DNA from: Bacteroidales bacterium
GTDB taxonomy: Bacteria > Bacteroidota > Bacteroidia > Bacteroidales > F082
Direction: 5' to 3'
Assembly: GCA_024400295.1 (NCBI GenBank)
Contig: JAKSNA010000004.1
Span: 62,001 to 126,000 of the forward strand
Length of the DNA stretch: 64,000 nt
Shown in pieces: positions 50,605 through 64,000 of the stretch. The translations under genes were made by a program, and so were the position numbers. Within the stretch, counting starts at the first letter, position 1; every line of letters starts with the position of its first letter. Under the pieces are notes generated by a model. The model did not search any database. It saw nothing but the letters and a program-made list of their open reading frames with translations, and had not been told where the DNA came from.

Positions 50605-51984
50605 TTAGTTGTTTTTACAGTTATCAATAATCTTCTCTAACATGCCAATAGAATAAAAAGGAACATTCACAAGGCGATAGAGCTTATGCCCAATGGGTGT
50701 TGTTAGGTCATTGATAGAGAATGGTTCATTCCAGAAACGAATAGCAGTTACTGGTAAATCCGTATTATCTACAAATACTTGTAAGGATTGTAATTTGGAG
50801 TTATGACCACTTTTTACTTCTATTGGATAAATGCGACCGTCTTTTTGCCAAATGAAATCGATTTCTGCATTTGCTCCCTTTTTGTCTCTTACCCAAAAGC
50901 AAAGTTCGTCTTCTATATGTTTGTCTAATAAAATTTGTAACTCTTGTGCTACGATATGTTCTGCAGCACGCCCTCTCCAAGTGTCTAATAGGTTCTTATT
51001 TTGTAAATACTCTTGTGCAAGTCCAACCTTGTGATTTACTAATCCATTATCCATCCAAATCAGTTTAGGTGACCGCCGACGGATAGGAATTGCAGGTACT
51101 TGAGAAGATGTAATTGGATAAGCCAATTGCATAATAAATGCCTTAGACAACACATCCATGGCTTCATGAATTTGCGTAGAAGTATAGGTGCTATTACCAA
51201 AATTAGCAAACTTTATCGTACTTCCTCCTTCGTGCCAACCAGTATTCAATATATGGCGAATTACACGTGTTTGAGCTTCATTTGTTGCATAATTTTCCAC
51301 ATCCTCTATGTATCCTGTAATCAGTGATTTATAGATAGGAGCTAATGTTACAAGGTCATGGTATGTTAAGTAATGACTTACCACTTCCGGCATTCCACCG
51401 ATCAATGCAAACGTATTAAATTCTCTCTGTAAATCAACATGTAGTAACTCACTTACGGTGAGATTTTCTATTTGTTCACGCCAAGTTTGTTTACCTGCGG
51501 CAGATAGATATTCAAGGAACGAGAATGGTCTCAAATTAAGGTACTCCACGCGCCCCACCGGAAAACTACGTTTTGCTAATTGTTGGTCATTTTGTCTATG
51601 TTTCAAGAGTTTTTGCAAACGAGAACCGGCGGCAATCACATACAAATCAGGTGCTTCTTCGTAGAAATAGCGTAATAAAGAAACAGCAGAATACGACTCT
51701 TGAATTTCATCAATAAACAGCAGTACCGCCTGTGTTTCATGGAGTGCGATATTTTCTCGCACATAAAGATATTGGATAATCTCCTTTACATTGTCTGTTC
51801 GCTCAAAAATATCTCTATCAGACTTTTTTTCTAAGTTTAACTTGATATAGCAATCGAATTCGTGGCTAAATTCATCCACCAAAGTGGTTTTGCCAACTTG
51901 TCGAGCACCACGTAAAACAAGCGGTTTTCGTGATGTCTTGCGTTTCCAATCTCGTAAATCAGATAGTAAATCTCTATTGTACAT
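50605..51984 (-). CDS. AAA+ ATPase with DUF4143 (ATP-binding/nuclease-fold) domain
   Basis: A 459-residue protein of the widespread AAA_14-DUF4143 family. Walker A GARQVGKTT, Walker B LLFIDEIQES, sensor motif VIAAGSRL, then GGMPEVVSHYL and a C-terminal restriction-endonuclease-like segment (NAEIDFIWQKDGRIYPIEVK). Function is uncertain. The start at 51984 follows TACCTTTG (52010-52017, minus strand); the longer frame runs through a tandem repeat and is rejected. A related gene flanks the other side of the island at 63244. Confidence 0.88.
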   Translation of the reverse strand: MYNRDLLSDLRDWKRKTSRKPLVLRGARQVGKTTLVDEFSHEFDCYIKLNLEKKSDRDIFERTDNVKEIIQYLYVRENIALHETQAVLLFIDEIQESYSAVSLLRYFYEEAPDLYVIAAGSRLQKLLKHRQNDQQLAKRSFPVGRVEYLNLRPFSFLEYLSAAGKQTWREQIENLTVSELLHVDLQREFNTFALIGGMPEVVSHYLTYHDLVTLAPIYKSLITGYIEDVENYATNEAQTRVIRHILNTGWHEGGSTIKFANFGNSTYTSTQIHEAMDVLSKAFIMQLAYPITSSQVPAIPIRRRSPKLIWMDNGLVNHKVGLAQEYLQNKNLLDTWRGRAAEHIVAQELQILLDKHIEDELCFWVRDKKGANAEIDFIWQKDGRIYPIEVKSGHNSKLQSLQVFVDNTDLPVTAIRFWNEPFSINDLTTPIGHKLYRLVNVPFYSIGMLEKIIDNCKNN

Positions 51985-52009
51985 GGGTACTTTATTTTGA
52001 AATCGGTTG

Positions 52010-52017
52010 CAAAGGTA
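52010..52017 (-). promoter_or_regulatory. -7 box TACCTTTG of the DUF4143 ATPase
   Basis: Complement of caaaggta, 25 bases before the ATG at 51984. Confidence 0.6.
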
Positions 52018-52054
52018 CTGTTTTTTTGAATTAAGCAAATATTTTTCTACCATT

Positions 52055-52142
52055 TTTTCTTCTAAAACATACCCGTAAAATGTATATTTTTCTTCTAAAA
52101 CATACCCATAAAGTGTGCAATTTTCTTCCAAAACATACCCAT
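52055..52142. repeat. 33-bp tandem repeat, 2.7 copies
   Basis: Units start at 52055, 52088 and 52121, each containing tcttctaaaacataccc. It lies just upstream of the ATPase promoter. No spacers, so not a CRISPR array. Confidence 0.8.
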
Positions 52143-53274: not shown

Positions 53275-54378
53275 TTAGTGTGTTATCAAATTTTCAATAA
53301 TTTCCCTATAGCATGAGTCAATATGATAAATATTATTCCATATATTTTTCCCGCATGCATCCTCTATGTACGATGCGAATTCATCATAAGGGAAGTCCGG
53401 AGTCATATAATTGAAATATGAACATAAATTGTCGTTAGCATAAAGAAAGAAGGGCCCCCTATGCCGCTGATTGATGCAGATGCTTAGATGGCAATCAATG
53501 TATACGACATCTAAGTGACGTAACTGATTAATTAAAGCTTGATATATATTAACGGTATTAACTTTTCTAAGAATAACTACTTTTGTCCCTTCTCTGCAAA
53601 AGATAAAATTATGAGAAAGGCTACTTTCTTCTGATACGATAGATTCTGCATTTTGGAAAAGAGATATCTGGTCAGGAACAGATAACTTCTCGGGAAAGAT
53701 GAGATGGTATCCTGAATCAATTATTATTTGACTTAAACGACTGCTACAAATCTGACGTAATGAGTTCTCTCTCATCAAAAATATTTTTCTTGGGGAAAAA
53801 ATATTAGAACCTTGGCGACATATATGATCAATAAGAGAAACGTATTCCTTGGTATACCTCAAAGAGATACGATGATTATCAAAACAAGTGTCGGGTATAT
53901 AAACGGAACGGAAAAGAGTAATTTTACTAATACGGTAGAATTGAGTCAAAGGAATGCCTATCAACTTGATAAATTCCAAATAATTACCATCCAAATGCGT
54001 TTCGCTAATATAATATATCGGAAGATGATTATATTTTTTCTTTATTTCAGTTACTATCCACCAAAGTCGACCGATAGAGTCTGTTATAGTGTGCCCCCAG
54101 CAAACACTAGAAATGTGACCAATAAATATAATATCTTGATCAACCTTTTCACCCTCATCGAACTTAAAGTCATAGATAGTTCCAATATTGAGATTATCAG
54201 AAATCTTTAATCCGCCACCGACATAATTTATATCTTCTTTGGCAAGAGCCTTATAAGGCAGACCATAGCAATCTTTATAATGATTAATACACAAAGAACC
54301 CGTCTCAAAATAATTATCTTTATGAGCTTCTATAGTGGGATCTTGTAGTAATGGATATGAGTAATGAATGTCTATCAT
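53275..54378 (-). CDS. GT61-type (DUF563) glycosyltransferase of the RiPP-like cluster
   Basis: A 367-residue cytoplasmic protein resembling family GT61 (DUF563). The hallmark region is CWGHTITDSIGRLWW (GH...RLW), and the C-terminal part has KIFLMRENSLRQI, SLFQNAESIVSEESSLSHN with the Glu and Ser typical of the donor site, and FIFCREGTKVV. Its start overlaps the stop of the upstream radical SAM gene by 4 bases, so it is translationally coupled to peptide-modifying enzymes. It may glycosylate the peptide product; this is inference from context. Confidence 0.72.
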   Translation of the reverse strand: MIDIHYSYPLLQDPTIEAHKDNYFETGSLCINHYKDCYGLPYKALAKEDINYVGGGLKISDNLNIGTIYDFKFDEGEKVDQDIIFIGHISSVCWGHTITDSIGRLWWIVTEIKKKYNHLPIYYISETHLDGNYLEFIKLIGIPLTQFYRISKITLFRSVYIPDTCFDNHRISLRYTKEYVSLIDHICRQGSNIFSPRKIFLMRENSLRQICSSRLSQIIIDSGYHLIFPEKLSVPDQISLFQNAESIVSEESSLSHNFIFCREGTKVVILRKVNTVNIYQALINQLRHLDVVYIDCHLSICINQRHRGPFFLYANDNLCSYFNYMTPDFPYDEFASYIEDACGKNIWNNIYHIDSCYREIIENLITH

Positions 54379-55400
54379 AAAATATTTTCTTGAGTAATAT
54401 AACCATTAGAAGATGCAAACTCATATACTCGGGGACACCGAATGTCACCCATGTTATCTGTGTGGAATACTTTTAATGATAAACCGGGGCATCCTCCATT
54501 ACAAATAGGAAGATATTTGCAATTATTACATATGGAATCAGAGTGAATATGGATCCTTTCTTTTTCCATGAGTCTATTCTTAATGTCAAGTATATCATCT
54601 GCCAATAAATTTCCTATACTTTGGTCAGTGCACGTACAAGGCAGTATATCAAAAGTCGGTGAAACGTAAAAATGTGAAACACCTCTACCACAATTAACTA
54701 TGCCGTGCCATGTTTTGCCACTTTCAAGGAATTTGTCCATTAAATCAAAAGCATATAATTTACTCACATCAACACGATAAAAGCATCTGATGAGAAGTTG
54801 ATCTACAAAATTATTCCACGTTGCTGCTGATATTATTTTTTCGGATAGAGGATTAAGAGGTTGAACATATGATACGGTAAGACGACGGAATCGCAAACCA
54901 TTCAAATATTCCGAAAGTGAAAGAACGTTATCCATATTCGCTGGCGTGACAGTTGATGAAATAGATAAGTGAGAATGATAGTTCTGTAAGTATCCAATAT
55001 TCGCCACAACCTTCTTGAAAGTGCCATTTCCCCTTATCTCGTCATGAATATCTTCCGTCCCATCTATAGAAAATTGTATAAAAACATTCTTGCTTAAATA
55101 CTTGATTAATTTATCTGTAACATCCCTATCAAATGTTCCATTTGTTTGGATTTCGATTTTTTCAAATTTATTAGACACATAGTCTAATATAGGAAAAAAG
55201 TTCTTAGTAATGGTTGGTTCCCCTCCTGAAAGCACTAATTTAGAATGAGGATACGCCTCTGATAAAATATCAAATGCCTTACAACAATCATGATATGTCG
55301 GCTCATGATATAATTTTGATAAATTATTTCTACTACAGAAAAAGCAATTACAATTACACTTTTCTGTAATCATAAATATTATACTAATCCTGTTACTCAT
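54375..55400 (-). CDS. Radical SAM/SPASM peptide maturase 1
   Basis: A 341-residue radical SAM enzyme. [4Fe-4S] motif CNCNCFFC (CxxxCxxC) near residue 15, SGGEPTITK as the SAM-binding GGE motif, IQFSIDGTEDIHDEIRGNG, and a C-terminal SPASM region with CGRGVSHFYVSPTFDILPC, then CNNCKYLPICNGGCPG and a final Cys, able to hold auxiliary clusters. Such enzymes form C-S, C-C or related bonds in ribosomal peptides. It is coupled by 4-bp ATGA overlaps to genes on both sides. Confidence 0.92.
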   Translation of the reverse strand: MSNRISIIFMITEKCNCNCFFCSRNNLSKLYHEPTYHDCCKAFDILSEAYPHSKLVLSGGEPTITKNFFPILDYVSNKFEKIEIQTNGTFDRDVTDKLIKYLSKNVFIQFSIDGTEDIHDEIRGNGTFKKVVANIGYLQNYHSHLSISSTVTPANMDNVLSLSEYLNGLRFRRLTVSYVQPLNPLSEKIISAATWNNFVDQLLIRCFYRVDVSKLYAFDLMDKFLESGKTWHGIVNCGRGVSHFYVSPTFDILPCTCTDQSIGNLLADDILDIKNRLMEKERIHIHSDSICNNCKYLPICNGGCPGLSLKVFHTDNMGDIRCPRVYEFASSNGYITQENIL

Positions 55401-56497
55401 TGGGCAATATAATTCTGTTCTATTAGTTCTAAATCATTTTGTACCTCACTAATTGCTTTCATAATGAGATAATCTGTATTTGAAATGCTTCTAGATGTTA
55501 TTATTCTATGATATTCTAATTTCGCATTTATTAGAAAATCAATTTTCCGATAATCACATATAGACATATCCCTTTCTCCCATATCTCCTCGTTCTATATA
55601 ATTAGCAGCATAGCAGGTGTGACATAGATTTATAAAACGGCATGTTTTACAAGGAGAATGTTCAATCTTAGATCTACTGGAAAAGTCTAATAAATCCATA
55701 TTTTGCGGTCTGTTTTCTCCGCACACAGACGGGAAAAACAAATGACATGGATAATATTTATTAGTATCGATGTCGTAGATAATTTTTTTACCGATATCAC
55801 ACAAGATACAATCACACTTAGTAAGTAATCTATCTAAATGTAGATTTAACGTATGGCAACGATGTACCTGCGGATTTTTAATATAATATTCTGCCAAAAG
55901 TGTTAATTGTTCATAGTAGGTTTGCTGGAGGTTTTTCTCTTTCCAATTAGTAAGAACTGCAAATATGGGAACAATGTTTTTCAATCCACATCCATGAAGA
56001 AAAATTACATTATCAGCATAAAAAGGCAAAGTTTGAGGGGTTATCACCATATTTACAGTACAATTGTCCCATGTTTCTGCAAAAAAAGGTATATCTATAA
56101 GATCGAAAGAATGCGGACGATTGATATCCTGTGAAACTCTATTTCCATCTAAGCTCAACTTACAATCAATATCTTTATTGTGCGATTTTAACCATTCTTG
56201 AATCTCACCATGCACAAGAGTTCCGTTTGTGGTAATTTGAAAATGTACGTTTTCTTCTAAATGCTCATTCCAAATTTGTTCACAAAAAAAGCGAATTTTG
56301 TCAAACACCAAGAATGGCTCTCCACCAATGAGTTTTATCTTAGTCCCATGTGCGGTAGGCTCTTTTAAAATATTTAATACCTTATTTAAAACTTGCTCTA
56401 CTTCGAAAACATTTTGATTCTTGTTTCGTTCATAGCAATATACACAATTTAAGTTGCATGATTGGTTTGTTTTTATGAATAAATGACGGCTGTACAT
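55397..56497 (-). CDS. Radical SAM/SPASM peptide maturase 2
   Basis: A 366-residue radical SAM enzyme. CNLNCVYCYERN holds the CxxxCxxC cluster; IGGEPFLVF is the SAM motif; FQITTNGTLVHGEIQEWL and CKLSLDGNRVSQDINRPHSF are typical. The C-terminal SPASM-like region contains CDCILCDIGKKIIYDIDTNK, KTCRFINLCHTCYAANYIER and further Cys. It differs strongly from its neighbour, so the two probably act on different residues or in sequence. First enzyme gene after the small peptides, separated from them by a strong hairpin. Confidence 0.92.
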   Translation of the reverse strand: MYSRHLFIKTNQSCNLNCVYCYERNKNQNVFEVEQVLNKVLNILKEPTAHGTKIKLIGGEPFLVFDKIRFFCEQIWNEHLEENVHFQITTNGTLVHGEIQEWLKSHNKDIDCKLSLDGNRVSQDINRPHSFDLIDIPFFAETWDNCTVNMVITPQTLPFYADNVIFLHGCGLKNIVPIFAVLTNWKEKNLQQTYYEQLTLLAEYYIKNPQVHRCHTLNLHLDRLLTKCDCILCDIGKKIIYDIDTNKYYPCHLFFPSVCGENRPQNMDLLDFSSRSKIEHSPCKTCRFINLCHTCYAANYIERGDMGERDMSICDYRKIDFLINAKLEYHRIITSRSISNTDYLIMKAISEVQNDLELIEQNYIAQ

Positions 56498-56521
56498 AAG
56501 TCTACATATTAAAATAAATAA

Positions 56522-56556
56522 CGTTAGCAGAACTCATTGATCGGGTTCTGCTAACG
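56522..56556 (-). terminator. Perfect hairpin between peptide 3 and the radical SAM genes
   Basis: A 12-bp perfect stem (cgttagcagaac / gttctgctaacg) with an 11-nt loop, followed on the minus strand by a T-rich ttatttatttt. It fits a leaky terminator that lets the peptide genes be expressed above the enzymes. Confidence 0.8.
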
Positions 56557-56568
56557 CGCGATGATTAG

Positions 56569-56706
56569 TTATGCGGAACACGTACCATCAGTTCCATCAT
56601 ACCAACATGCAGGTGCATTAACTGTGGATGCTTCCATATGCTCGTAATTCATTGCAAGCCACGCATTCACATTAGCTCCCATCTGAGACATTCCTTGATT
56701 TAGCAT
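56569..56706 (-). CDS. Candidate RiPP precursor peptide 3 (45 aa)
   Basis: A 45-residue peptide: leader-like helix NQGMSQMGANVNAWLAMNYE, then HMEASTVNAPA and a core-like end CWYDGTDGTCSA with two Cys. An unusually perfect Shine-Dalgarno (aggaggtg, complement of 56713-56720) lies 6 bases before the ATG, in a genome that mostly lacks such sites. It is followed by the 12-bp hairpin and two SPASM enzymes. Small size, Cys pair, strong translation signal and position support a modified-peptide precursor. It is not obviously related to peptides 1 and 2. Confidence 0.65.
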   Translation of the reverse strand: MLNQGMSQMGANVNAWLAMNYEHMEASTVNAPACWYDGTDGTCSA

Positions 56707-56738
56707 TTTACACACCTCCTTTCATCAATTTGTTTCGG

Positions 56739-56895
56739 TTATTGGTCTTCACAATCACAATCATCCGCTCCCGTACCCGGGATCGGGACAATCACACATA
56801 GATACATCGTAAAGTGATGCATTCAAAAATACGATTTCGCTGCAAGTATTATTTTTTGGCATAGCGACATTGCCAGTTATACCCCATCGGCACGT
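56739..56895 (-). pseudogene. Candidate precursor peptide 2, altered start and frameshift
   Basis: Aligns codon by codon with peptide 1: CRWGITGNVAMPKNNTCSEI, then VFLNASLYDVSMCDCPDPG. At the position of the peptide 1 start it has ACG (56893-56895) where peptide 1 has ATG; the internal ATG at 56862 is shared. After CPDPG the frame meets a TGA at 56761-56763, whereas a +1 frame continues TGADDCDCEDQ to a stop at 56739, which resembles the acidic Cys-rich end of peptide 1. Either a real frameshift or a base-calling error. Confidence 0.6.
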
Positions 56896-56924
56896 CGATT
56901 TTAAAGACAAGACACTATTGCTGA

Positions 56925-57086
56925 TTATTCGTCATCGCATGAGCAATGTGGAATATCATCACAATTACAATCATAATTTGGTTCGCACATAGACGACTCA
57001 TATTCGTATGCGCCCAAAAAAATTATTTCGCTACAATTATCATTTTTTTGCATAGTAACATTACCTCTTATATCCCATCGGCTCAT
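56925..57086 (-). CDS. Candidate precursor peptide 1, acidic Cys-rich (53 aa)
   Basis: 53 residues from the ATG at 57086: SRWDIRGNVTMQKNDNCSEI, IFLGAYEYESSMCEPNYD, then a C-terminus CNCDDIPHCSCDDE. Six Cys, mostly in the acidic tail, suggest bonds or metal binding after modification. A -7 box TACTTTTG lies at 57124-57131, so the longer frame to 57152 starts upstream of transcription and is rejected. Translation might also begin at an internal ATG (57053), which is preceded by agagg. Homologous to peptide 2. Confidence 0.65.
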   Translation of the reverse strand: MSRWDIRGNVTMQKNDNCSEIIFLGAYEYESSMCEPNYDCNCDDIPHCSCDDE

Positions 57087-57123
57087 CGGCTTATAAGTTA
57101 ATATACTGGTTATAACTACGCTA

Positions 57124-57131
57124 CAAAAGTA
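57124..57131 (-). promoter_or_regulatory. -7 box TACTTTTG of the peptide/radical-SAM unit
   Basis: Complement of caaaagta; start site expected about 30 bases before the peptide 1 ATG. It separates the peptide unit from the upstream FtsZ-like operon. Confidence 0.6.
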
Positions 57132-57194
57132 CAATATATTTTTGACATACACAAATTTTTAACGTAAAAAACCTATTTTTTTACAGTTTTTCAG

Positions 57195-58337
57195 TTAATC
57201 TCGTCTTTTATATGGTCTTAATGGCAAATCAAGGGAAGCTTTCAGTTCGTCCATTAATTTATTATATCGACGCGTCCACATTTCTTTATCATCATACCAA
57301 GGACGACCTCTAAGTTTTCTAAATTCTTTCTGCTGCTGAATATATTCCTCAAGTGTAATTTCCAGTATACGTTCACAAGCATCTCGATTACCAAGCAAAC
57401 GATTTAATTCAAATTCTGTAGATGATAAACGTAGAGGCGAACATGATTGATAGAAATCAAGTAGCCATTGCATATTGCTCCGATTAAATTCTTGCTCTTC
57501 TTCAGGAATTTCATCAGTATCTTTGTAAAAAGCATTGAATGCGTTCCAAAATTCCGAACTTGCCCACTGTTCAGAGTAAGGTACTCCTCTCAATTCTTTA
57601 ACGGCAGCTTTTAATTGCGGATAAGATAAAATTGCTTTCTCTGCACAAGGTTTGTTTACAATAGTTAATCTACCTTGCGGCTTACGTGTGAAAAACTTCC
57701 CACATTTTGGACATTGTTGTGTAAACGTTGGTTCGAACCAATCATTCGCTTCCATATGGTCATCAGACCAAAAGGTAAGCCCCTCCTTCGACCAAAAGTC
57801 TTTGAAAAAGAGGACTCTTCTTTTATGACCACAATGTGGGCATTTTATAATACGCGTTTCAGTTCCCTCAGGCGAACCATAATATGTTAAAATAAATTGT
57901 ATATTGTTTATTACCTCTTCGTCAGATTTGTTGAAGGCATTGAGAAGGTTGAAATCTGTATACTTTGTTTTCAAAATATCATTATCGCAGATATGGAGCT
58001 CATCAACCAATTTTCGTAGTTCGGAACACGCTTGTGTTGCCTTATCCATTCGTATTTGCCCCTCAAAAGCAAAAGGAGTAGTAACTACGGCGACGGTTCT
58101 AATCCTTTTCTTCGACGCTTTTTTAACAACATCAATAATCATGGTGGAGCCGGTATGACCGCCTAATCCTGCCACTAAGATTAACACGTTACCATTTTCG
58201 AGAGCCTTGTTAATGTTTTCCTCCGAATCTTCTTTGGCAAAATAGAAACAATTGATTTCCGGTCTTTGTCTAGAAAATTGCTTTATGACATTGCAACCTG
58301 CGTTTCCAATGCCTAGAATAGAAATTTTTGTTTTCAT
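57195..58337 (-). CDS. FtsZ/tubulin-like GTPase-fold protein with zinc ribbon
   Basis: A 380-residue protein. Residues 1-~150 follow the FtsZ nucleotide-binding half: ILGIGNAGCNVIKQF, the tubulin signature LVAGLGGHTGSTMI (GGGTGTG variant, residues ~57-64), RTVAVVTTPFAFEGQIRMDK, DELHICDNDIL and LLNAFNKSDEEVINNI. The second half of FtsZ, including the NxDxxD T7 catalytic loop, is absent. A zinc ribbon (CPHC at ~166-169, CPKC at ~209-212) and a helical C-terminus follow. It may bind GTP without classical assembly-driven hydrolysis. Last gene of a tight four-gene operon with a phosphatase and an AAA+ ATPase. The architecture is not one I know by name. Confidence 0.7.
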   Translation of the reverse strand: MKTKISILGIGNAGCNVIKQFSRQRPEINCFYFAKEDSEENINKALENGNVLILVAGLGGHTGSTMIIDVVKKASKKRIRTVAVVTTPFAFEGQIRMDKATQACSELRKLVDELHICDNDILKTKYTDFNLLNAFNKSDEEVINNIQFILTYYGSPEGTETRIIKCPHCGHKRRVLFFKDFWSKEGLTFWSDDHMEANDWFEPTFTQQCPKCGKFFTRKPQGRLTIVNKPCAEKAILSYPQLKAAVKELRGVPYSEQWASSEFWNAFNAFYKDTDEIPEEEQEFNRSNMQWLLDFYQSCSPLRLSSTEFELNRLLGNRDACERILEITLEEYIQQQKEFRKLRGRPWYDDKEMWTRRYNKLMDELKASLDLPLRPYKRRD

Positions 58338-58342
58338 AACAT

Positions 58343-59104
58343 TTAATTTTTATTGAATTTAATGATTTGATAACTTTGTATAGGCTTGCCTAACGCTTTG
58401 TTTCCTAGGCAATCCACATTAGTAAATCCTTTTTGAGAATTTACTACGTAGGGCACTTGCGTATGACCAAATACTTGCCAATAATTTGTGCCTTCAAACA
58501 GATTAACTCCTGCTTTTTCGAAGATATATGAACGCAGCCAAATGGGGCTTTGTGATGGACCTTCAAAATTCCCACAATCAAAGGTAGCATTAGGACGAAC
58601 CATAAATGCTTTTTTGTTTATTTCCCACAAATTATTGATTTGATTGGCTATCTCGTTTGGTGCTTCATCTCTATATGGTCCCAAATACCTTCCCCACCAT
58701 TGTCGGCTAACCCCGGCATGGGTAATTAAATGGTTTCCTACCGCATAAGCAACTCCATTAAAAAAATCCTCATTTTCATAAAGAAGATCCTGTATCTCTG
58801 TTGCATGCACGGAATCAAATCGGCTGTAGATTTCTCTTCCCTTATCATAAAGGAGGTAGTGTAGCTCATGGTCTGCATATAACAAGACAGTTTCCGGATG
58901 TTGCTTCTTGTAATCAATAATCTCAAGAAAATTCCTCTTACAATCCTCAAAAGATATGTTTTGATAAGGATCGAGATAATCGCCGACAAACACGTTCCGG
59001 ATGCCATCAATAATGACATCTCTCCATGCATCACGACCATGCACATCGCCTATGACATTAGCGGCGATTGCATTGGGGTCAAAATGTAAACATTCGGTTT
59101 CCAT
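58343..59104 (-). CDS. Calcineurin-like metallophosphatase
   Basis: A 253-residue cytoplasmic phosphoesterase. Metal-binding motifs in order: IGDVHGRDAW, FVGDYLDPYQN, LLYADHELHYLL (GNHE replaced by ADHE), LITHAGVSRQWWG and QVFGHTQVPYV. The Asn to Asp change in the third motif is unusual but could still bind metal. The gene is 5 bases before the FtsZ-like gene and 3 bases after the helical gene. A role reversing phosphorylation within this operon is an inference. Confidence 0.85.
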   Translation of the reverse strand: METECLHFDPNAIAANVIGDVHGRDAWRDVIIDGIRNVFVGDYLDPYQNISFEDCKRNFLEIIDYKKQHPETVLLYADHELHYLLYDKGREIYSRFDSVHATEIQDLLYENEDFFNGVAYAVGNHLITHAGVSRQWWGRYLGPYRDEAPNEIANQINNLWEINKKAFMVRPNATFDCGNFEGPSQSPIWLRSYIFEKAGVNLFEGTNYWQVFGHTQVPYVVNSQKGFTNVDCLGNKALGKPIQSYQIIKFNKN

Positions 59105-59107
59105 CTT

Positions 59108-60034
59108 CTAATCAAAATATTTCGACAATTCTTTTAACACCTTGATTCTTTGTTTGGCATGCTTCACATCTAATTTTTCATGCGGAATCTCAACTAAATA
59201 ACCTGCAATATGTTCTTTCGTATAGGTACGAATAATTTCATCTTTTTTACATATCCGCCATAATTCGTATAAGTACGAAACACGCGGATTATGTAACTCA
59301 GCCCACTGGGCAAGACCTTCAAGTATCCATAAGATTTCCACTTCAATCCAACTACATGATTTTTCGTTACTTTCCTTTCGTATTTTCCTTAATAAAGACC
59401 TATGAACAGACAGTATTTGCTCAGTCCTTTCAATATGACGGAGACACGTTTTCTTGGTCGCAAAGACATCTTTGCGGGCATGTACCCAGTAATATTGTTC
59501 CAACATTGCAATCTCTACCCACCGGCGGTTATTATCGTCATTCCCATACGGACCATATTTCGAAATACACTCGTAATATTTAGCCGATTCTTCATCTTCT
59601 TCCATTTTGTCTAACTCACGGCTTAAAAGTAGGCTAAGATTGATAAAACAATCCCACAAAATATTCTTTTTACTTCTAATATTAGGGATATAACCGATCA
59701 TCTCTTTATGTAGAGCCTTAGCCCGCAAGAAGAATGGCTCACGGAAGTCTATGTCTTCGTCTTGCTGCAAGTAGTAATTGCAAAGCGCTTCGCCTACCAA
59801 TGAAACACGTAAATATAAATCTTGTTCGTACCATGCTTTAAGTTTTGGGAAGTATGCTCTGAATTTATTTGCCTTATGACTTAGTTTGTCAAAGGCATTG
59901 ATTCGCTCATCGTATGTTGGAGAATAGTTGCTTTTTTTATTATCCAATTCTTTAAGAATACAAAACATATCATCAGCAGCCTTCATATAGGATGCATAAA
60001 TATCTTTTATTTTTTTATTATCAATTTTTCCCAT
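59108..60034 (-). CDS. Helical protein of unknown function
   Basis: A 308-residue, almost entirely alpha-helical, charged protein with no signal peptide or membrane segment. Trp/Tyr-rich helices such as FPKLKAWYEQDLYLRVSLVG and WIEVEILWILEGLAQWAELH suggest a TPR/HEAT-like solenoid. I recognise no family. It is placed between the AAA+ ATPase (68-base gap) and the phosphatase (3-base gap), so it is a structural or adaptor candidate. Confidence 0.6.
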   Translation of the reverse strand: MGKIDNKKIKDIYASYMKAADDMFCILKELDNKKSNYSPTYDERINAFDKLSHKANKFRAYFPKLKAWYEQDLYLRVSLVGEALCNYYLQQDEDIDFREPFFLRAKALHKEMIGYIPNIRSKKNILWDCFINLSLLLSRELDKMEEDEESAKYYECISKYGPYGNDDNNRRWVEIAMLEQYYWVHARKDVFATKKTCLRHIERTEQILSVHRSLLRKIRKESNEKSCSWIEVEILWILEGLAQWAELHNPRVSYLYELWRICKKDEIIRTYTKEHIAGYLVEIPHEKLDVKHAKQRIKVLKELSKYFD

Positions 60035-60102
60035 AAGGCGTTATTTTTGTTATAAAAAATATGTTTTTTTAGCAGCTGGTAGAAGCAACAAAAAGTGTCA
60101 TT

Positions 60103-61758
60103 TTAATAGAAACCAATGCGATTGTGTTTATGCGAGTTGCGAGTTTCCATTTTATTATGTAAGAGTTCATACTCATGTCTGATTTCTTCAGACAGCGAAG
60201 GTGAAGTGTTTGCGATATGGCGGAGCAATACTGCTTGACTAATAAGTTCCTCTTTGCGAGCAGCTTCCATTGCAGCATAATTAACCACGGCACTTATGTC
60301 GCTGGCAGTAAAATTTTCCGCTTTTTGACCTAATTCTTGACAATTTACATCTGAGGTCAACGGACGGTCACGCAATTCAATATCAAAAATGGCTTCGCGA
60401 GCCTTTGCATCAGGAGCTGGTACATATACTTTTTTATCAAAACGTCCGGTGCGTAGCACGGCAGAATCTATTATGTCTGGCCGGTTAGTTGTTCCTATAA
60501 CAAAAATTCCGCTATCAGCTAAGTTGTTGAGTTCAGATAAGAATGTGTTCGTTTCCGCTGCAACTTTTATATCATAATCTCTACGTGTGGGACACATCGC
60601 ATCAATTTCGTCAAAACATAGAACACACGGAGAGTTGCGCTTAGCCTGGTCAAACAGTTGTTGAATTAACATCTGCGTACCGTGTATATATGAACTACTG
60701 ATTTCAGAAGCTTTAATCAAACAATAGGACATGGCTCCTTCATTGGCAAAATGTTCAGCGAAAAAAGTTTTACCACAGCCAGGAGGACCATAGAGTAACA
60801 TACCATTGGTCATATGAAGTTTGTATTTATGAGAGAGTTCAGGATGCAATAATGGAAAAAGAACTTCGTTACGCATGCTCTCTTTTAGGTACTCCATTCC
60901 TGCTACTTTATTCAGTCCATTCGTGCCGTCTCCATGTTTAAATTGGAATGTCTCCAACACGCCACAACGAGAGTATAATGACTTTTGTTCTTCAAACGAA
61001 AAATTCGTATTAGTATTAACTTGATTTTCGTTCGTATTAAATTGATTTGAAGAGATGTTCATAGCAGGATTCCCGTTGTTATAAGTTTGCCTGTTACCTG
61101 AATTTTGATTTTTATTATCCTCTTCATCTTGACAACAATCAGTCAGGGACTCTAATATCGTTTTGCAGACATCATCTAATTTAAATCTATCATCCAATTC
61201 TGGCATCCACTCAGCCATGCCAGAGCTCCGAATTTCATCCTGCAAATAGCTACAATATAGAATCAACAAATCATTTAACTTTGTTTTGGAGTGTAGATTC
61301 GTTATTCCACATTCTATTACCGGTTGGATAAAAGAGGGAAGTTGATTTGTATAATTAAGTTTCTCGTTTTGGCGGGCATTGAAAACAGCATGCCTTTGTT
61401 TTGCCCTAGACTCGTTTTTGATATTGTCGTCAATATGCCACGGCAAATGTCCGGCAAAAAGATAATACAAAATAGTAGTCACGGTAAATACCGTATCTTG
61501 CTCTTCAGACCATCTACCTGTTTTTATATAGTGATCAGAATAATAGCGATAATCCAATTTCTGTGTTTTGTCAATTTTTATCTCATCAACGACAAATGGG
61601 GCATCCTCCATAATAAAACTCTGCGGACTTAGGTTCTTGCAACTTTTATTGAATGAGCTGTAAAGATATGTGTTATTTAAGATACTCATTCCCAATATTA
61701 GATTATTGGCGCATTTTTGTCCCGCTACTTGAGGTAAAATATCATCTAATGTTTTCAT
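60103..61758 (-). CDS. Cdc48/SpoVK-type AAA+ ATPase with possible kinase-C-lobe-like N-terminus
   Basis: A 551-residue protein. Residues ~30-130 resemble the C-lobe of a protein kinase without catalytic residues: KNLSPQSFIMEDAPFVVDEI where HRDLxPxN would be, then TVFTVTTILYYLFAGHLPWH like SDVYSLGxxLYYLLTGxLPW. An Asn-rich linker (~220-250) follows, then one AAA+ module: GMLLYGPPGCGKTFFAEHFA (Walker A), CVLCFDEIDAM (Walker B), sensor-1 GTTNRPD and arginine-finger region RTGRFDKKVY. First gene of the operon that ends with the FtsZ-like protein. It may remodel or disassemble a partner. Confidence 0.8.
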   Translation of the reverse strand: MKTLDDILPQVAGQKCANNLILGMSILNNTYLYSSFNKSCKNLSPQSFIMEDAPFVVDEIKIDKTQKLDYRYYSDHYIKTGRWSEEQDTVFTVTTILYYLFAGHLPWHIDDNIKNESRAKQRHAVFNARQNEKLNYTNQLPSFIQPVIECGITNLHSKTKLNDLLILYCSYLQDEIRSSGMAEWMPELDDRFKLDDVCKTILESLTDCCQDEEDNKNQNSGNRQTYNNGNPAMNISSNQFNTNENQVNTNTNFSFEEQKSLYSRCGVLETFQFKHGDGTNGLNKVAGMEYLKESMRNEVLFPLLHPELSHKYKLHMTNGMLLYGPPGCGKTFFAEHFANEGAMSYCLIKASEISSSYIHGTQMLIQQLFDQAKRNSPCVLCFDEIDAMCPTRRDYDIKVAAETNTFLSELNNLADSGIFVIGTTNRPDIIDSAVLRTGRFDKKVYVPAPDAKAREAIFDIELRDRPLTSDVNCQELGQKAENFTASDISAVVNYAAMEAARKEELISQAVLLRHIANTSPSLSEEIRHEYELLHNKMETRNSHKHNRIGFY

Positions 61759-61871
61759 AATGCTTCATTTTTAATAGTTGTTAATTTTTAAATTGATGGC
61801 TTGACGTATAAAACCGTTATTCACCTGATTTCAAACATCTGATTTTTTCATCTTTGGGAGCAACGTTCATT

Positions 61872-61967
61872 CTATTTTCCCACATATTTTTCACAGATTC
61901 CTTTTTGTGTTTCTGCAAATTCTAATTGCATGTGTACTTGCTGTTTTTTTCGTTTTTCTGTCACCAT
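61872..61967 (-). CDS. Mini-ORF, 31 aa, basic
   Basis: ATG at 61967 to TAG at 61872: VTEKRKKQQVHMQLEFAETQ and KGICEKYVGK. It shares a K-R-K...MQLxFA pattern with the mini-ORF at 62341, so the two may be related. No family recognised. Could be a genuine small protein or chance. Confidence 0.3.
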   Translation of the reverse strand: MVTEKRKKQQVHMQLEFAETQKGICEKYVGK

Positions 61968-62009
61968 AATACCTGAATTTTAAATGTTTGTATTTTTATC
62001 GCATAAAAA

Positions 62010-62040
62010 AAGGCTTGAACATACGTAGTGTCCAAGCCTT
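62010..62040 (-). terminator. Terminator hairpin 2 of the mini-ORF array
   Basis: Stem aaggcttg / caagcctt followed on the minus strand by ttttttatgc. Confidence 0.75.
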
Positions 62041-62050
62041 CATTTCTGAG

Positions 62051-62152
62051 TTATTCGAGCATGGGGCGTTCCACCTTTAGCCCGTACTTGGATTTACTAT
62101 CGAATAATGCTTCGACTGCTGCTGTATCGCGTTTTTTTGACGTGTTACACAA
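62051..62152 (-). CDS. Mini-ORF, 33 aa, TTG start
   Basis: From a TTG at 62152: TSKKRDTAAVEALFDSKSKY then GLKVERPMLE. The composition looks protein-like, and it ends 11 bases before a terminator hairpin. No ATG; it could equally be the tail of a lost gene. Confidence 0.3.
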   Translation of the reverse strand: MCNTSKKRDTAAVEALFDSKSKYGLKVERPMLE

Positions 62153-62234
62153 TATTTACTTTTTAACTGAATCAATTTTGATTATAAAATTTACAGGGTT
62201 ATTTACTCGTTTTTCTTAGGCTGTTGCATAAAAA

Positions 62235-62266
62235 AAGACTTGGGACGTGCTTCCGCTCCAAGTCTT
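62235..62266 (-). terminator. Terminator hairpin 1 of the mini-ORF array
   Basis: Stem aagacttgg / ccaagtctt followed on the minus strand by tttttttatgc. Confidence 0.8.
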
Positions 62267-62340
62267 GTATCTTCTTTTCTTATCCACACGCACTCACAAC
62301 AGACAACGGAGCGATCGAATTGCTCGACCACGATCGCTGC

Positions 62341-62418
62341 TCAATCATTTGCAAGTGCATTATGTGCGAATAGTAATTGCATTCTTAATTTTCTTTTCCG
62401 ATTTTTTATATTATTCAT
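62341..62418 (-). CDS. Mini-ORF, 25 aa, with promoter
   Basis: ATG at 62418 to TGA at 62341: NNIKNRKRKLRMQLLFAHNA, LAND. A -7 box TAACTTTG (complement of 62423-62430) lies 4 bases upstream, which would make a nearly leaderless small transcript ended by the hairpin at 62235. A structured small RNA is an alternative reading. Confidence 0.35.
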   Translation of the reverse strand: MNNIKNRKRKLRMQLLFAHNALAND

Positions 62419-62724
62419 TTTGCAAAGTTATAGTTTTTTTTGATATGTCCATAGTTTTTTTTTGTTGAACATAAAAAAAAATAACTTGATAAAGTTTTGA
62501 GTCAACCGAAGATGATTTGTAACGATACAAAACACCATCATCGAACACCTTAATCAGAGGCTCGAAACGGCACCAAAATTTATAGTTAAATATTTGATTA
62601 TTAATTAGATATATTTGCAAAACTGGAGAAATTTTCGTAACTTTAAATACTATTCGACGGTATTTTAAATGATTACGAAAGCTCCTCCAGCGGTACTCAC
62701 AACTCTTTTGGACAGTCATCCCGA

Positions 62725-63066
62725 ATGGTTCGAGACTTTCAACCTCGTCATCGGGCCGAGAACTGCCGGATTGCCTCAGGACGAGAGTGTCATCCGGGTA
62801 TCGGTCATTCCAAGTCCCTTGAGCACAGGCTCTTCTCGCAGATAACCCGCAGCTGGAGCGGAACTCAGCTTCTTTCCATTGAAGATGCTACAAGACGGGC
62901 CGCTGAAACAACCACATCGAAAGGACTGACCGTATATGTTGACATCAATACCAAAACTTATGACATACAAAGACCGATTGACGAATCTTACGAAAGAGAA
63001 CGCAGGAGACGAATCATCCCGATGGACGCTCTACCCAAGTGGAATTATCTCGTCAAAAGGTCGTGA
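62725..63066 (+). pseudogene. ISAzo13-like transposase C-terminal remnant
   Basis: The frame ends with sequence like the DDE transposases of the ISAzo13/Rhodopirellula type: SLEHRLFSQITRSWSGTQLL, then ATRRAAETTTSKGLTVYVDI and KWNYLVKRS. Only about 110 of the ~400 expected residues remain; the start and the first catalytic Asp residues are missing. It lies 40 bases before the right 40-bp repeat, so it may mark how the island was acquired. Confidence 0.65.
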
Positions 63067-63105
63067 ATTTTACCAAGTTATTTTTTTACCGTTACTAACT
63101 GTTCA

Positions 63106-63145
63106 AAGTTACGAAAAAAATATTCAATTGGCGTTAAAATATTTA
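63106..63145. repeat. 40-bp direct repeat, right copy (island boundary)
   Basis: Identical to 52234-52273. Flanked here by the transposase remnant on one side and by a DUF4143 ATPase gene on the other. Confidence 0.85.
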
Positions 63146-63243
63146 ATTTTTGTTCTTCTGTCTTTCCGTCAATCTTTCAGTTAATTCCGTCATCAACCGC
63201 AAAATAAATCGGTTACTGATTCCCATTGACCATACGAACGAAA

Positions 63244-64000
63244 TTAGAAGATAGAATAGAAAGCATATAAAGGTATATCCGTAATCTGCTCACTTAGATG
63301 GTATGGAGATAAAGATGTTCGAATGACGTTTTTAGGGTGATTTTGTTGTATATATATGGCTATGGATTTGGCTTTTAGATGCCGTTCCGCTTTTACTTCA
63401 ATAGGAATGATTTGTTCCTCTTTTTGAATGACAAAATCCATTTCCGCAATACTCTCATCAGGTGTCCAATAGTGAATCTCCAGCGAATTCAGTGTCTGCA
63501 TTTCTTGCAAAACAAATTGTTCGGTTAAAGCACCTTTATACTGGAGAAATAAATCATTTCCTTGAGTTATGGTAGTAGCACTTAGTCCTGACATTGCTCC
63601 CATCAATCCAATATCTAATAGATATAATTTGAAGGAATTTATATCTTCAAAACCTTTTAGAGGAAGTTGCCCACATCGCACACGTGAGATTTTATAGGTT
63701 AGTCCGGCATCACACAGCCATTGAATAGCTGTTTCAAAATCGCGAGCTCGTGCTCCTTGTTTGACAGCATTATAAACAAACTTTTTATTTTCTTTGGCTA
63801 ACTGGGCGGGAACAGAATCCCATAACAATGCCATGCGCTTAACAATTTCTTTAGGCGGATGTTTAGAAAAATCGTTTCGATAAGACTTTAAAATTTCTTG
63901 CTGCACAGCGCGTACTTTTTCGTAATTCTGTTGTTCAGCAAAGGTTTTAACTACTTCCGGCATACCTCCGACAAAGTAATATTGCCGTAATAAATCCGTT
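63244..64000 (-). CDS. AAA+ ATPase with DUF4143 domain, C-terminal part (truncated by window edge)
   Basis: The minus-strand frame is open to the window end (reading LLRQYYFVGGMPEVVKTFAE at the edge), so the ATPase core lies outside. The visible part has the GGMPEVV linker, a helical DUF4143 region and the nuclease-like segment IAEMDFVIQKEEQIIPIEVK. Same superfamily as 50605-51984 but a different subgroup. Function uncertain. Confidence 0.85.
   Translation of the reverse strand, partial: TDLLRQYYFVGGMPEVVKTFAEQQNYEKVRAVQQEILKSYRNDFSKHPPKEIVKRMALLWDSVPAQLAKENKKFVYNAVKQGARARDFETAIQWLCDAGLTYKISRVRCGQLPLKGFEDINSFKLYLLDIGLMGAMSGLSATTITQGNDLFLQYKGALTEQFVLQEMQTLNSLEIHYWTPDESIAEMDFVIQKEEQIIPIEVKAERHLKAKSIAIYIQQNHPKNVIRTSLSPYHLSEQITDIPLYAFYSIF

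Follow-up and report, generated by a model that had tools for sequence, protein, structure and literature searches.

What could join an AAA+ ATPase, an all-helical protein, a metallophosphatase and an FtsZ-like protein in one operon? The question is raised by a locus in a 64,000-nucleotide stretch of DNA from a Bacteroidales bacterium of the GTDB lineage F082 (assembly GCA_024400295.1, contig JAKSNA010000004.1, positions 62,001 to 126,000), the whole of which is referred to here as the window. Four intact open reading frames (ORFs) lie on the minus strand and encode an AAA+ ATPase (60103–61758, 551 aa), an all-helical protein of no recognisable family (HEL; 59108–60034, 308 aa), a PPP/calcineurin-like metallophosphatase (MPP; 58343–59104, 253 aa), and an FtsZ-like protein composed of an FtsZ N-domain and a zinc-ribbon/helical domain (FtsZL; 57195–58337, 380 aa). 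They are tightly spaced, with gaps of 68, 3 and 5 bases, exactly as described in an earlier reading made from the letters alone (hereafter the sequence-only reading). Profile matches and phylogeny place the AAA+ protein, which evolves fast, in a Bacteroidota family of kinase-AAA+ fusions. We propose, tentatively and with less than even confidence, that the operon is a variant of the kinase-AAA+ module that moves horizontally and evolves rapidly, probably a ClpP-coupled unfoldase with an FtsZ mimic, acting in stress or conflict.

The AAA+ domain was matched by PF00004 (E = 1.2e-33) and is Cdc48/FtsH-like, in keeping with the AAA+ remodeller proposed previously. The hidden Markov model (HMM) of the kinase-AAA+ family covered residues 58–550 with a score of 429 bits, leaving residues ~1–57 unmatched; a low-complexity linker (~210–275) is followed by the AAA+ domain and its lid (~280–505) and by the C-terminus HNRIGFY. 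The match begins at position 171 of the 597 positions of the model, the kinase N-lobe being absent, and no trace of an N-lobe was found in the DNA upstream of the start codon. When the isolated N-terminus was compared with the same HMM, only residues 58–211 matched (33.7 bits; E = 7.5e-13 in a search space of one), the clear kinase part being residues 58–160, which correspond to the C-lobe only. Since the match is restricted in this way, the N-terminus appears to be a remnant of a kinase C-lobe; with the position of the HRD Asp occupied by N, this gives substance to the earlier suggestion of a kinase-like, possibly pseudokinase, N-terminus. Other weak matches to this region (L053–L055) were discarded as false, being a TetR-like ORF, a match in a spurious frame and a coiled coil. 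The Walker A, Walker B and sensor 1 residues, both Arg fingers, and the pore-loop Tyr and Gly are all intact, and from this conservation the AAA+ part is predicted to be an ATP-driven threading motor. In the phylogenetic tree, the window protein falls within a Bacteroidales clade (the 52-row set holding it has 100/99 support); its branch is 1.86 changes per column long, compared with a median of 0.11 for end branches. This nested position on a very long branch suggests that the loss of the kinase N-lobe was most likely secondary.

The family to which the protein belongs typically consists of a two-lobed protein kinase fused to a Cdc48/FtsH-type AAA+ domain and is widespread in Bacteroidota; our searches of Pfam, NCBIfam and PADLOC yielded no family name for the fusion. 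These fusions were first reached by a score-ranked search of 295 genomes of the class; within the window's own taxonomic family, 57 of 172 genomes gave a match at E ≤ 1e-50, and a profile scan of GTDB species genomes yielded 286 candidate loci, 80 of which were kept and inspected. We examined 97 family ORFs, a set that includes the window copy and counts about five loci twice because two collections overlap. All 97 share the Walker A Lys, Walker B Glu, sensor-1 Asn and first Arg finger; the N-terminus extends into the kinase N-lobe in 89 and the VAIK Lys is present in 88, while the HRD Asp position holds D in 68, E in 17 and N in 5. A gene for YbjN adjoins the AAA+ gene in 49 of the 97 loci (PF10722 in the one tested) and one for Hsp70 in 22 (PF00012 in the one tested), and at least one of YbjN, Hsp70, ClpP or the unnamed c3/c6 proteins is a neighbour in 75. 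The label 'TerB-like' for the c6 neighbour was assigned by eye only and was dropped, there being no Pfam match. The window copy thus shares with the family an AAA+ domain 40–49% identical to those of its relatives, the kinase C-lobe homology and the C-terminal tail found in most members, but lacks the N-lobe and the HRD Asp; none of the usual partners adjoins it, and its neighbours are instead HEL, the phosphatase and FtsZL.

Family members commonly end, after a variable linker, in the motif (R/K)-I-G-F at the extreme C-terminus. A C-terminal [ILVM]G[FY] was found in 78 of the 97 family ORFs, versus 25 of 1078 (2%) other proteins encoded in the same loci and 0.59 of 97 in shuffled sequences. 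The same tripeptide forms the IGF loops by which ClpX and ClpA dock on ClpP (PMC9035409), and the window AAA+ shares with these unfoldases both the tripeptide and a threading pore loop.

FtsZL was matched by PF00091 (E = 4.2e-16), by TIGR00065 (82 bits, against a cutoff of 295) and by phmmer against PDB sequences (E = 2.4e-16), and is about 40% identical to the host FtsZ over 110 residues. Its AlphaFold2 model, computed from an 8-row alignment that contained FtsZ rows, is good for residues 1–150 (block predicted local distance difference test, pLDDT, about 72–93) and poor elsewhere. VIA-align placed residues 1–156 on FtsZ up to about residue 204 in E. coli-like numbering (Z 21.8 and root-mean-square deviation 1.8 Å for the best chain). 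Since FtsZ rows were present in the alignment, this fold match is not fully independent, whereas the PF00091 and phmmer matches are. The tubulin/FtsZ fold proposed in the sequence-only reading is therefore borne out for the N-domain by both PF00091 and VIA-align. That reading had also noted the absence of the T7 loop, and T7 is indeed absent; the deletion, however, is larger, as H2-S3-T3 and the whole C-domain are missing too. FtsZL shares with FtsZ the GTPase-domain fold over 156 residues and has kept most of the core of the N-domain, along with signatures resembling T1, T4 and T5, but T2/H2, S3 and T3 are deleted in both alignment and model, and the resemblance to the FtsZ fold stops immediately short of T7. 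In place of the C-domain is a fused part (residues ~160–370) made up of a zinc ribbon, with two CxxC pairs, and a helical region. Homologues of this part elsewhere are stand-alone double-CxxC zinc-ribbon/helical proteins of ~205 aa (L047–L051), an uncharacterised family present in up to a tenth of the sampled Bacteroidales genomes; the window protein is the only fusion of this domain to FtsZ that was seen.

In FtsZ filaments, H2 (D46, Q48), T3 and T7 form the interface and active site, and the D46A substitution alone hampers assembly (PMC8936486). Since FtsZL has lost H2-S3-T3 and ends its FtsZ part before T7, ordinary FtsZ GTPase activity and polymerisation are not expected, and on sequence and model the protein is best seen as a non-polymerising FtsZ mimic without FtsZ-like GTP hydrolysis. 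A mimic of this kind could in principle inhibit the host FtsZ directly, in the manner of SulA or MciZ, so that the operon would be a division-arrest device restrained by the AAA+ motor and the phosphatase. Structural work concluded that FtsZ subunits join a filament by the top surface, at the bottom end where T7 is exposed, and that bottom-interface mutants are toxic (PMC8936486), so that a one-faced N-domain could cap filaments, and the retained signatures and core of FtsZL agree with such a role. However, FtsZL has lost the top-face elements H2 (D46, Q48) and T3, which make contact with T7, and its identity to the host FtsZ is low over the aligned 110 residues. We consider division arrest by direct inhibition unlikely.

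The phosphatase assignment made earlier is supported by the motifs D-x-H, GDxxD, H-E, HAG and GHT and by homologues at 30–45% identity. PF00149 (Metallophos) matched below threshold (E = 0.21) and was the sole phosphatase-type Pfam match, but alignment with stand-alone homologues showed that the metal-binding motifs are complete except for GNH[DE], which reads ADHE. With only this one motif departing from the set, phosphatase activity of MPP is plausible, though not certain. Its homologues in the same genus lie in loci without a conserved neighbourhood. HEL had no match in Pfam, NCBIfam, PADLOC or PHROG and no homologue in 395 genomes of the phylum, in plasmids or in viral contigs; a single-sequence AlphaFold2 model was all-helical with a pLDDT of 42.8, a confidence too low for a fold search.

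Does the four-gene set recur? The searches covered samples of the family, order, class and phylum, plasmids, phage records, viral contigs and the kept kinase-AAA+ loci (80 of 286 inspected), each collection being queried with at least one of the four, and a second genome with the four genes was not found. A sample of about 390 genomes for each of HEL and the AAA+ N-terminus yielded no true relative. Searches of plasmids and phages by tblastn with FtsZL, MPP, HEL and the AAA+ N-terminus returned only FtsZ-type matches and distant phosphatases, scans of IMG/VR with HEL and FtsZL gave no match, and a scan of GTDB contigs with the T4 region of FtsZL gave no confirmed relative. The proposed co-occurrence of the four families was thus not found: relatives of the phosphatase and of the AAA+ protein have different neighbours, and the zinc-ribbon part of FtsZL occurs on its own. 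The sequence-only reading had named two outcomes that would tell against it, namely scattered homologues and the absence of a tubulin fold; the homologues are indeed scattered, but the fold is present. Overall, its domain assignments hold and the repeated co-occurrence it envisaged does not. As far as these sequence searches reach, this exact combination of four genes occurred nowhere else; its AAA+ motor belongs to a widespread family.

The operon had been described as lying in a mobile-looking, AT-rich island. Its G+C content is 0.372, compared with 0.442 in window positions 1–50600, where 5 of 93 segments of the same size have so low a value, and the C-terminal remnant of an ISAzo13-type transposase lies upstream of the operon on the plus strand (62725–63066; PF07592, E = 3.6e-12, profile positions 225–306 of 308). 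The low G+C content, this insertion sequence (IS) remnant and the absence of the set from other genomes of the family suggest that the operon was gained horizontally. The same setting might suggest that the operon is decaying, its genes being island remnants without joint function: both the kinase and the FtsZ parts are truncated, the set was found in one genome only, the AAA+ branch is very long and the IS remnant is nearby. Such decay is nevertheless quite improbable, since the four frames are intact and tightly spaced, the catalytic residues of the AAA+ domain are fully conserved, and FtsZ was cut at a domain boundary with a second domain fused in frame.

Returning to the proposed kinase-AAA+ module variant, family membership, the loss of the N-lobe and catalytic Asp, the motor residues and the IGF tail are read directly from the sequence, and we infer the rest of the mechanism. 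The AAA+ hexamer would thread client proteins, and its IGF tail would dock it on ClpP, like the IGF loops of ClpX and ClpA, leading to degradation of the client. The kinase remnant, probably together with HEL, may serve as a docking or adaptor surface and not as an enzyme, and the PPP-like phosphatase may strip gating phosphates from the system or its target. FtsZL could act as bait or regulator for FtsZ-binding partners, e.g. phage-encoded division inhibitors; alternatively, it could be an effector, set free by the AAA+ motor to interfere with division. There is precedent for related logic: the defence protein CapRel senses an FtsZ inhibitor of phage origin when this is bound to FtsZ (PMC13423816), and NTP-dependent conflict systems contain disrupted kinases, rare FtsZ/tubulin domains and HSP70 (PMC7159879). 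The operon would most likely serve a stress response or conflict with phages or mobile elements, not housekeeping. Of the roles suggested earlier, polymer control and phage defence are conceivable, and membrane remodelling gained no support.

The link to ClpP is drawn from the relatives. In 15 of the 97 loci, which belong to more than one branch of the tree, a ClpP paralogue adjoins the kinase-AAA+ gene (the two tested matched PF00574 with E about 1e-57), and by analogy with ClpX and ClpA the family probably feeds proteins to the ClpP protease. However, several observations weigh against the proposal. The IGF tripeptide is an internal loop in ClpX but a C-terminal tail of a Cdc48/FtsH-type domain here; the operon holds no ClpP gene; and in 13 of the 15 ClpP-adjacent relatives a V-V-x-x-L-like tail replaces IGF, which is kept in two (L132 and L145). 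The differing tail makes the connection between IGF and ClpP indirect: we read the covariation as a tail adapting to its protease, but IGF might instead bind something else. Further, by sequence HEL is an uncharacterised protein with no detectable relative, co-assembly of FtsZL with FtsZ is doubtful given the missing H2 and T3, the detailed placement of the AAA+ protein on its very long branch is unsure, and PADLOC found no defence match among the operon proteins beyond generic AAA+ similarity to IetA. Finally, since no second genome with the four genes was found in the collections searched, their functional coupling rests on one operon.

The tail exchange also bears on whether the AAA+ protein is a non-proteolytic, Cdc48-like remodeller of complexes of the other three proteins, with IGF binding a partner other than ClpP in the operon or host. 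Besides the 13 differing tails, it agrees with this that most IGF-tailed relatives adjoin YbjN or Hsp70, which are chaperone-type partners. Against it, the tripeptide is identical to the ClpP-docking motif, and ClpP adjacency occurs in more than one branch and includes the two loci with IGF tails. A remodeller of this kind is possible, though on balance we lean away from it.

Known systems resemble the operon in part. The AAA+ domain of IetA, from the anti-phage system IetAS, was the best PADLOC match (110.7 bits), but IetAS joins IetA to the subtilase-type IetS, and Pfam and PADLOC found no IetS or subtilase among the four proteins. The kinase-kinase-phosphatase defence module KKP (PMC11341870), as here, combines a kinase fold with a phosphatase on a mobile element; it has two active Ser/Thr kinases (PfkA and PfkB) and the phosphatase PfpC, whereas the operon has one kinase C-lobe remnant without the catalytic Asp and a PPP-like phosphatase, in addition to the AAA+ protein and FtsZL. 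The NTP-dependent conflict systems with MoxR-vWA/GTPase cores (PMC7159879) are similar in their AAA+ chaperone logic, disrupted kinases and rare FtsZ/tubulin effectors, but vWA, MoxR-type ATPase and GAP1-type GTPase domains were not among the Pfam and NCBIfam matches of the four genes.

Several loci of relatives are worth noting. 1) An arrangement of YbjN, kinase-AAA+ and ClpP paralogue recurs in Bacteroidales (L100, L103, L105, L112, L114, L122 and others), with a V-V-Q-G-L-like AAA+ tail in place of IGF. 2) Operons that unite a kinase-AAA+ gene with one or two DnaK-like Hsp70 genes (L081, L082, L120, L163 and others) also encode a coiled-coil protein of membrane type (~300 aa) and a ~175-aa protein that Pfam does not match, and in several of these operons the kinase HRD Asp is changed to Glu. 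3) In L158 (8454–15427), the genes AbiEi and AbiEii flank an AAA+ relative whose N-terminus is made of leucine-rich repeats, and L146 (5719–11613) holds a relative with an exchanged N-terminus of unknown type, the genes clustered with it encoding an M78-type peptidase, an NT5C-like nucleotidase and a dual-specificity-type phosphatase; these contexts fit, without proving, a conflict role for such branches with exchanged N-termini. L158 also has an FtsZ gene ~3.5 kb downstream of the AAA+ relative, outside a recognisable division cluster, but since this FtsZ is complete with its T7 region and was seen in only 1 of 80 loci, its proximity is probably a coincidence.

Upstream of the AAA+ gene is an apparently non-coding leader (61759–62450, minus strand). 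It contains a Bacteroidetes-type -7 element, TAACTTTG, at ~62430 with no clear -33 element and, on the minus strand within 62001–62290, a terminator-like hairpin (62041–62009) and a similar hairpin/oligo-U sequence (~62242–62226), 225 bp apart; these elements are consensus matches only and as a set are not above chance. The paired hairpins, downstream of the possible -7 element, could be terminators or small RNAs; an Rfam search of 56400–64000 gave no match. Beside the operon is a cluster resembling those for ribosomally synthesised and post-translationally modified peptides (RiPPs; 53275–57155, minus strand), encoding putative precursors, radical SAM proteins and a glycosyltransferase-61 protein. 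The putative precursors are small and Cys/Asp-rich (56925–57152, with a third short ORF near 56570–56705), a second copy (56792–56916) being a 70%-identical repeat that looks frame-shifted. The two radical SAM proteins (54375–55400 and 55397–56497) matched best, below cutoff, the PapB-type ranthipeptide maturase of NCBIfam. This cluster has its own Bacteroidetes-type promoter (57155–57124) and was therefore excluded as part of the operon. On either side of the stretch holding both lies a DUF4143/AAA_14 ATPase gene (50605–52131, and from window position 63244 onwards; L201:7245–8543).

More broadly, the family may represent an unnamed class of Bacteroidota AAA+ proteases with a kinase-fold sensor and IGF-ClpP docking, one mobile branch of which swapped its partners for a phosphatase and an FtsZ mimic used as phage-inhibitor bait or division-blocking effector, a view that we regard as speculative and rather unlikely in its entirety. 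If true, gut Bacteroidota would own a family of kinase-gated AAA+ unfoldases with a simple ClpP-docking tail, and one mobile branch would use a cut-down FtsZ as a tool; phosphorylation, the division machinery and protein quality control would come together in a single device for conflict or stress. FtsZL would also be a natural example of an FtsZ N-domain that lacks T3, T7 and the C-domain.

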